This document shows positions 9,769 to 21,647 of a DNA stretch of 64,000 bases, piece after piece. Both the position numbers and the translations under genes were made by a program. The notes under the pieces were generated by a model, which had not been told where the DNA came from, did no database searches, and saw nothing but the letters and a program-made list of their open reading frames with translations. The stretch covers positions 124,001 to 188,000 of the forward strand of contig NZ_JAMQOT010000005.1 in the NCBI RefSeq assembly GCF_029502005.1, given 5' to 3'. Every line of letters begins with the position of its first letter. Within the stretch, counting starts at the first letter, position 1. The DNA is from Natrinema salsiterrestre (GTDB taxonomy: Archaea; Halobacteriota; Halobacteria; Halobacteriales; Natrialbaceae).

Positions 9769-9843
9769 GCTCCGGTGGTGTAGTCCGGCCAATCATATTG
9801 CCCTCTCACGGCAATGACCTGGGTTCGAATCCCAGCCGGAGCA
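9769..9843 (+). tRNA. tRNA-Glu (anticodon CTC)
   Basis: The acceptor strands GCTCCGG (9769-9775) and CCGGAGC (9836-9842) pair perfectly, with discriminator A at 9843. The anticodon stem TTGCC/GGCAA encloses the seven-base loop CTCTCAC, giving anticodon CTC, which reads GAG. The T-arm is GGGTTCGAATCCC-like. CCA is not encoded and there is no intron. The last 23 bp are repeated 110 bp downstream. Confidence 0.95.
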
Positions 9844-9930
9844 CTCTTCTGAGGAACGAAGTGACGAAGAAGAAAGCGCACGCTCTGGGATTTGAAGCAC
9901 GGAAATCCGAGCGGAGCAAGGATTTGCATC

Positions 9931-9953
9931 GGGTTCGAATCCCAGCCGGAGCA
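9931..9953. repeat. Direct repeat of the tRNA-Glu 3' end
   Basis: An exact 23-bp copy of the T-arm and acceptor 3' strand of tRNA-Glu (original at 9821-9843), including the discriminator base. The 87 bp between the copies contain GGGATTTGAA (9887-9896), nearly the reverse complement of the T-arm, and the word AGCGGAGC. It resembles an attachment-site duplication, but no integrase or cargo lies between the copies. Confidence 0.85.
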
Positions 9954-10191
9954 TCTCGACTTTCGGGATTTTTCCTGACTCAGAGACGGGACAGTACTTC
10001 GTCCCTCTCGAGAGCAGCCCCAATTAGCGACGAGGAAGCGAGTGAGATCGGTGGGGGGAATCTTGCTTGCGAGCGTCGGATTACGATAGGTATCGATGTG
10101 TCGGGGGATATCGGAGACGGCGGACACGTACCCATCGTTCACATACAACATTTTCGCAAGGTTCGTATGAGACACCTACCTATGAGGGACA

Positions 10192-21197: not shown

Positions 21198-21282
21198 GCC
21201 GAGATAGCCTAGCCCGGCCAAGGCGGTAGATTCGAAATCTACTGTCCTCACGGACTCGGGAGTTCAAATCTCCCTCTCGGCG
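21198..21282 (+). tRNA. tRNA-Ser (anticodon CGA)
   Basis: The acceptor strands GCCGAGA (21198-21204) and TCTCGGC (21275-21281) pair, with discriminator G at 21282. The anticodon stem GTAGA/TCTAC encloses TTCGAAA, giving CGA, which reads UCG. The long variable arm (TGTCCTCACGGACTC) is the class II feature of serine tRNA. The T-arm is GAGTTCAAATCTC. No intron is present. The T-arm, acceptor and flank are repeated 130 bp downstream. Confidence 0.95.
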
Positions 21283-21391
21283 CTTTTCCACCAGCAAATC
21301 GCTGAGCGTCGCGTAGCGGAGCGAAGTAAACCGTGGCTGGAAAACGATCAGTGATTTGAATCAGGAAGTGAAGCGGAGCGAAACGACCGTG

Positions 21392-21442
21392 GTTCAAATC
21401 TCCCTCTCGGCGCTTTTCCAGCAGCAAACCGCTGAGCGCCGC
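21392..21442. repeat. Direct repeat of the tRNA-Ser 3' end and its flank
   Basis: This copies 21262-21312: the first 29 bp are identical (T-arm, acceptor 3' strand and 8 bp of flank) and the next 22 bp differ at three positions. The segment between the copies has GATTTGAATC (21353-21362), the inverse of the T-loop, and two AGCGGAGCGAA words (around 21315 and 21372) each followed by a CCGTGG word. The rest of the 365-bp interval to the next gene (21443-21647) holds no gene I can support. Confidence 0.85.
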
Positions 21443-21647
21443 CTCAGTTACTCGTCGGCCTCGAGTAGCGCGGAGCGTACTGCGGCGACTCGTCGCCAGA
21501 CGCGGAGTGGACCGCGACCACCGAGACGGCGGGCGGGCCCCCATCACTCGCAAGCAGTGTCACTATGCGAAGACTTGGAATATGTGTGGTGACACGAGCC
21601 ACAATGATCGCCACTCGAGAGACAGCAACTCGACCGCGGTGGGGACG

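Follow-up and report, generated by a model that had tools for sequence, protein, structure and literature searches.

The 3' end of the tRNA-Ser(CGA) gene of Natrinema salsiterrestre recurs a short distance downstream of the gene, which raises the question of whether the second copy arose by local tandem duplication, as the original prediction held, or belongs to something wider. The gene (21198-21283, forward strand; called by ARAGORN, with Rfam RF00005 at 56.9 bits over 21198-21282) lies in a window of 64,000 nucleotides, i.e., the whole stretch of DNA analysed, to which the coordinates of the two loci described below refer. A repeat search agreed with the predicted coordinates and counts: a 51-nt direct repeat (21262-21312 and 21392-21442) with 94% identity, 3 mismatches and a spacing of 130 bp, the initial 29 nt being identical between the copies and both AGCGGAGCGAA words confirmed. 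The repeat anatomy also bore out that the unit is bounded by the tRNA end. The idea of a simple tandem duplication did not hold, since a constant non-tRNA core and an inverted tRNA copy are present, and the unit is one of a class-wide family whose members follow many different tRNAs. An inverted T-loop copy between the direct copies, two hairpins and a second unit behind tRNA-Glu were features beyond those predicted.

All parts of the locus are on the forward strand. The first tail copy, D1 (21263-21282), comprises tRNA positions T54-73, that is, the T-loop, the 3' T-stem strand and the 3' acceptor strand; it was delimited by sequence, with its edges taken from 77 core-anchored units. Immediately 3' of the tRNA, RNAfold predicted hairpin A (TTTTCCACC ... 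GGCTGGAAAA; 21284-21344), the arms of which are perfect in relatives though their sequence differs, for example TTTTGCAGCAAC/GTTGCTGCAAAA in G002. The inverted complement of the tRNA T-loop, I (GATTTGAA; 21353-21360), spans 8 bp here and approximately 12 bp family-wide. It is followed by the core TCAGGAAGTGAAGCGGAGCGAAACGACCGTGG (21361-21392), a near-invariant 32-nt hairpin with GA-rich internal loops, and by D2 (21393-21412), a 20-nt exact copy of D1 according to both the sequence and the repeat search. In the remaining stretch (21413-21442), hairpin A begins anew with its left arm, and no complete second unit follows. Besides hairpin A, RNAfold predicted an I-core-D2 hairpin with internal loops. 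The predicted fold of the isolated 130-nt stretch was not unusually stable (z −1.2), and that of tRNA plus unit was (z −3.9), a figure that includes the tRNA itself. Open reading frames across 21248-21553 are chance reading frames.

A second anchored tRNA of the window, tRNA-Glu(CTC) (9769-9844, forward strand; ARAGORN), is followed on the same strand by another unit of the family (9845-9953), consisting of a hairpin, I (9885-9896), core (9897-9933) and D2 (9934-9953), which repeats the tRNA-Glu tail (9824-9843) exactly over 20 nt. A covariance model of I-core-D2, built from 38 sequences, recovered the tRNA-Ser and tRNA-Glu units with E-values of 3.4e-18 and 0.006 (9881-9955), respectively, and all other weak matches in the window overlapped one of these two loci. 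When the tRNA-Ser locus was used as a query against the rest of the genome, three more places were found, each directly behind another tRNA, and inspection of the flanks of all detected tRNAs showed that about half of these genes are followed by an I and a D matching their own tail. The copied tails are diverse (His TTCGATTCTCGC vs. Val TTCAAATCTGCC), and the core is common to different tRNAs, with variants of TCAGGGAGTG...ACGACCGTGG behind Ser, Val, Leu and His. The best 17 model matches in the genome (E up to 1.15) were all located 32-294 bp downstream of a same-strand tRNA; two partial matches at E 1.63 lay elsewhere. Two tRNA-Met genes, L058 and L059, are nearly identical in hairpin A and in I but have unrelated cores, so that only the apical core is exchanged between them.

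Across Halobacteria, the covariance model matched 273 of 292 genomes and 74 of 77 genera, with no match in 19 genomes. Its pull to tRNA tails is partly built in because D positions are included, and the core pattern TCAGGGAGTGNNGCNNNGCGNAACGACCGTGGTTC served as an independent test: it was found exactly at 36 loci (40 sites) in many haloarchaeal genera, 37 of the 40 sites being 45-299 bp downstream of a same-strand tRNA and the remaining three being placed at the edge of a contig or after a degraded tail. None of the 40 sites represented a core-bearing D2 far from its own tRNA. No core-bearing unit was found on viral contigs with the exact pattern, or in phages or plasmids by blastn, and Rfam gave no match other than tRNA above the cut-off. 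A tRNA-anchored palindromic repeat family that is class-wide in haloarchaea is well supported.

The copies are precise and sharply bounded. In 77 units anchored on the core alone, identity of D2 to the tRNA was 0.81-1.0 at each position from T54 to 73 and then fell to approximately 0.5 and 0.3; position 53 was always G, similarity ahead of G53 was patchy, and I matched approximately 12 nt corresponding to T54-65. The reach of the repeat past the tRNA, as originally described, is real at tRNA-Ser (approximately 30 bp of flank similarity) and atypical of the family, whose copies end sharply at the tRNA 3' end. Simple tandem duplication was rejected as a general explanation because similarity usually ends at this edge and the core is shared among tRNAs. 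Tail copies with at most 4 substitutions were present downstream of 84 of 133 tRNAs, a proportion that is no frequency estimate since loci were partly chosen for having units; the upstream count was 1 of 133, and the flank of an unrelated tRNA gave 0. In a unit-enriched set of 163 tRNA flanks, 116 tRNAs had at least one real tail copy, compared to 2 chance copies in shuffled flanks, and spacing was narrow (median 113 bp, quartiles 104-133), with a typical unit length of approximately 105-135 bp.

At the positions covered by I in which D1 and D2 disagree, I sided with D1 23 times and with D2 once, indicating that I goes with D1 and that I-D2 pairing is not restored by compensation; only 1 of 25 D2 changes was matched by I. 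Strong covariation across loci (57 cells changed on both sides, against 22 in shuffles; 0/500) was dropped as evidence of RNA selection, as I and D are both copies of tRNA tails, which differ between loci, and changes arising later are uncompensated. Arrays reach 6 extra copies, with block repeats. When decay was scored by an unbiased semi-global scan, the second extra copy was more decayed than the first in 32 cases and less decayed in 4. The sense strand folded better than the antisense strand in 45 of 45 instances.

Copy number varied among relatives, as had been anticipated. The tRNA-Ser(CGA) gene was found in all 29 Natrinema genomes, and 15 of these carried 1-2 extra tail copies in units of 117-197 bp with the order D-A-I-core-D; in the rest there was no extra tail copy, or it was decayed or interrupted. 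Spacing as well as copy number thus differs across the genus, instead of one identical spacing in all relatives. At the tRNA-His locus, hairpin A and I are alike in much of Natrinema, with at least 4 kinds of core. Within a single genus, presence/absence and core type both differ between orthologous loci, at tRNA-Ser as well as at tRNA-His. Three further observations concern tRNA-Ser(CGA). In G022 (L011), one of the 15 genomes with extra copies, a whole unit approximately 100-200 bp behind the gene is inverted, as if flipped between inverted tail copies. In G008, G010, G011 and G021 (L076-L079), the DNA behind the gene is unlike the usual ferredoxin-gene flank, pointing to an insertion or rearrangement there, and no distant second end with core was found within the approximately 19 kb examined. 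In G011, the break lies within the core, after TCAGGG.

The units are class-wide, non-coding and palindromic, they lie 3' of tRNA genes, and they are most likely a non-autonomous, site-specific mobile repeat, a reading to which we assign a probability of roughly 0.5. It is supported by the tRNA linkage, the class-wide spread, the sharp edges at T54 and tRNA position 73, presence/absence at loci, the same core behind different tRNAs, the decay polarity and the multi-unit arrays; from such features we infer mobility, a crossover point and recognition of the hairpin. The unit is laid out as hairpin A, I (the inverse of tRNA T54-65), hairpin core and D2 (the copy of T54-73). An incoming unit would bring a functional tail (D1), the inverted copy I and the core, and would enter at the G53/T54 edge of the T-loop; it would supply the 3' end of the tRNA gene, and the old tail would stay behind as D2. 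Supplying a new tRNA tail by insertion is the logic of T-loop attachment sites. Arrival of D1 together with I, with D2 as the old tail, fits the siding of I with D1, and a left edge at T54 with a right edge at the tRNA end fits an insertion that brings D1 and leaves D2, the trailers differing in that case because of their different sources. Later units would enter beside the tRNA, so that older ones would be displaced outward and decay, and the I-core-D hairpin may be the recognition site of a hypothetical recombinase acting in trans.

Several observations weigh against mobility. No recombinase, cargo or circle was found, nor were any copies on plasmids, phages or viral contigs; in the window, the extension of the D repeat approximately 30 bp past the tRNA end resembles tandem duplication. 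The main difficulty is posed by I, which matches the local tRNA although the parts on either side of it, A and core, are common ones; a change of tRNA requires rewriting of I, which might occur on retargeting by, e.g., quasi-palindrome correction. Hairpin A and I at tRNA-His look vertically conserved and only the core changes, so that exchange may involve no more than the core. Decay polarity could alternatively result from homogenisation nearest the tRNA.

A more specific version of the mobile repeat is tentative and less likely than not: a previously undescribed, class-wide haloarchaeal system that would add ORF-less hairpin cassettes at the tRNA T-loop in an integron-like manner, with a folded I-core-D site rewritten for each tRNA. 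Integron cassette arrays with attC hairpins provide the features for comparison. Both systems show an array beside a fixed anchor, and both have an imperfect-palindrome site with a variable apical part and a junction before TT. The newest-first polarity of integron arrays would be matched by the stronger decay of distal copies if that decay reflects age rather than homogenisation near the tRNA. In contrast to integron arrays, the haloarchaeal units are archaeal, have no ORFs and no identified integrase, and are anchored on a tRNA gene.

Function as an RNA is a less probable reading, which we regard as unlikely. The unit would be part of the pre-tRNA transcript, forming a structured trailer that would tune tRNA folding, 3' processing or termination, with I antisense to the T-arm and D2 as a decoy tail. 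This agrees with the invariable position of units on the tRNA strand and their better folding in the sense strand (45/45), with the span of I, which covers just the T-loop and the 3' T-stem strand, and with the near-invariance of the core across orders and its tandem GA-type internal loops. It is harder to reconcile with the lack of a unit behind approximately half of the tRNAs of the same genome and at tRNA-Ser(CGA) in approximately half of Natrinema, with the 19 of 292 genomes lacking a match, with the lack of compensatory I/D2 changes inside units and with the decay of distal copies.

Slightly less probable again is that the units are by-products of replication or repair, in which template switching at palindromes near tRNA genes would generate inverted and direct tail copies with no dedicated enzyme. 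The core would then be copied from other tRNA loci via the T-loop word TTCRAATC, and arrays would grow by unequal exchange. That I and D always copy the local tRNA, the zig-zag order D-I-D-I-D, the block duplications in arrays, the core junctions within a T-loop word common to tRNAs and the twin tRNA-Met genes with common A and I and different cores would all follow from such a process; the stop of D2 at the tRNA 3' end, with differing trailers, and the strict placement downstream of the gene (1 upstream copy among 133 tRNAs at ≤4 substitutions) would be left unexplained. That the locus is what an ordinary provirus or integrative plasmid targeting tRNAs left behind, with D1 and D2 as attL and attR and the interior deleted, is disfavoured and very improbable. 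Duplication of the tRNA 3' part in direct orientation is the classic signature of such elements, known in haloarchaea (PMC7921747, PMC3119063, PMC7230728), and the unusual downstream DNA in G008, G010, G011 and G021 would fit. However, the interior does not consist of random remnants, as hairpin, I and core recur behind many tRNAs in 74 genera; the spacing is narrow, none of the 40 sites holds a distant core-bearing D2, and viral or plasmid copies were not found.

Among known systems, the nearest anatomical relative of the haloarchaeal unit is, we presume, the repeat of E. coli tyrT (rtT RNA), which reportedly consists of tandem 178-bp repeats, each with the last 19 bp of tRNA-Tyr. In both cases, a tRNA gene is followed by non-coding tandem repeats that each carry a tRNA 3' end of approximately 20 nt; however, tyrT is one enterobacterial locus, whereas the haloarchaeal family covers many tRNAs in a whole archaeal class, and its unit has an inverted copy and a common hairpin core, with no Rfam match. 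The tRNA-targeting integrative elements of haloarchaea, which use tyrosine recombinases (PMC8371274, PMC7921747), share direct tRNA 3' repeats that leave the tRNA intact; they differ from the present units, which are approximately 110 bp long, form tandem arrays, contain conserved internal hairpins and were not found on viruses or plasmids. No integrase is encoded in the unit, as approximately 110 bp leaves no room for a gene, and no cargo was found. REP/BIME, MITE, SMR and PATE repeats, of which MITE, PATE and SMR are described in Haloquadratum (PMC3119063), are likewise short, non-coding and palindromic and lack a transposase, but they are dispersed and have fixed ends or IS605-like palindromes, whereas the flanks of the haloarchaeal core match each tRNA. 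REP/BIME dispersal is untied to one gene class, whereas 17/17 of the best own-genome matches were tRNA-linked. At the unit ends, the sequence varies with the tRNA, where a MITE would be expected to show a fixed TIR shared with a transposon.

Partial tRNA repeats have been described at haloarchaeal proviruses, and partial tRNAs or remnants adjoining a full tRNA are mentioned once (PMC7921747); no earlier description of a tRNA-tracking palindromic family was found in the open-access literature searched. Recurrence of a single repeat family downstream of many tRNAs in 74 of 77 genera would affect the annotation of proviruses and attachment sites and would alter the reading of tRNA trailers and terminators. 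It would also bear on the explanation of repeats whose sequence follows that of the gene ahead of them, and it sharpens the question to a recombinase acting on folded T-loop hairpins vs. an RNA element of tRNA maturation.

Outside Halobacteria, among 197 genomes drawn across the phylum, the model matched only seven genomes of one family, and these matches are marginal (E 8e-4 to 1e-3). G346, G362, G372, G393, G397, G401 and G456 had one match each at E of approximately 9e-4, and the near-constancy of these values is suggestive of a single conserved locus, not of the repeat family. In three genomes from families other than that of Natrinema, model matches were mostly tRNA-linked. Among the matches that seemed to lack a tRNA, six were examined; four were at tRNA-Pro or tRNA-Trp genes missing from the Rfam list, one was an orphan tail and one a 50-bp array. 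The array, in G188 (L152, C1:1471300-1473200), repeats a 50-bp unit (TTCGATCC...GGCTCGAATCAGGGAGTGAAACGACCGTGG) 11 times in tandem; no tRNA was found within the 1.9 kb examined, and we read the array as core spreading away from a tRNA.
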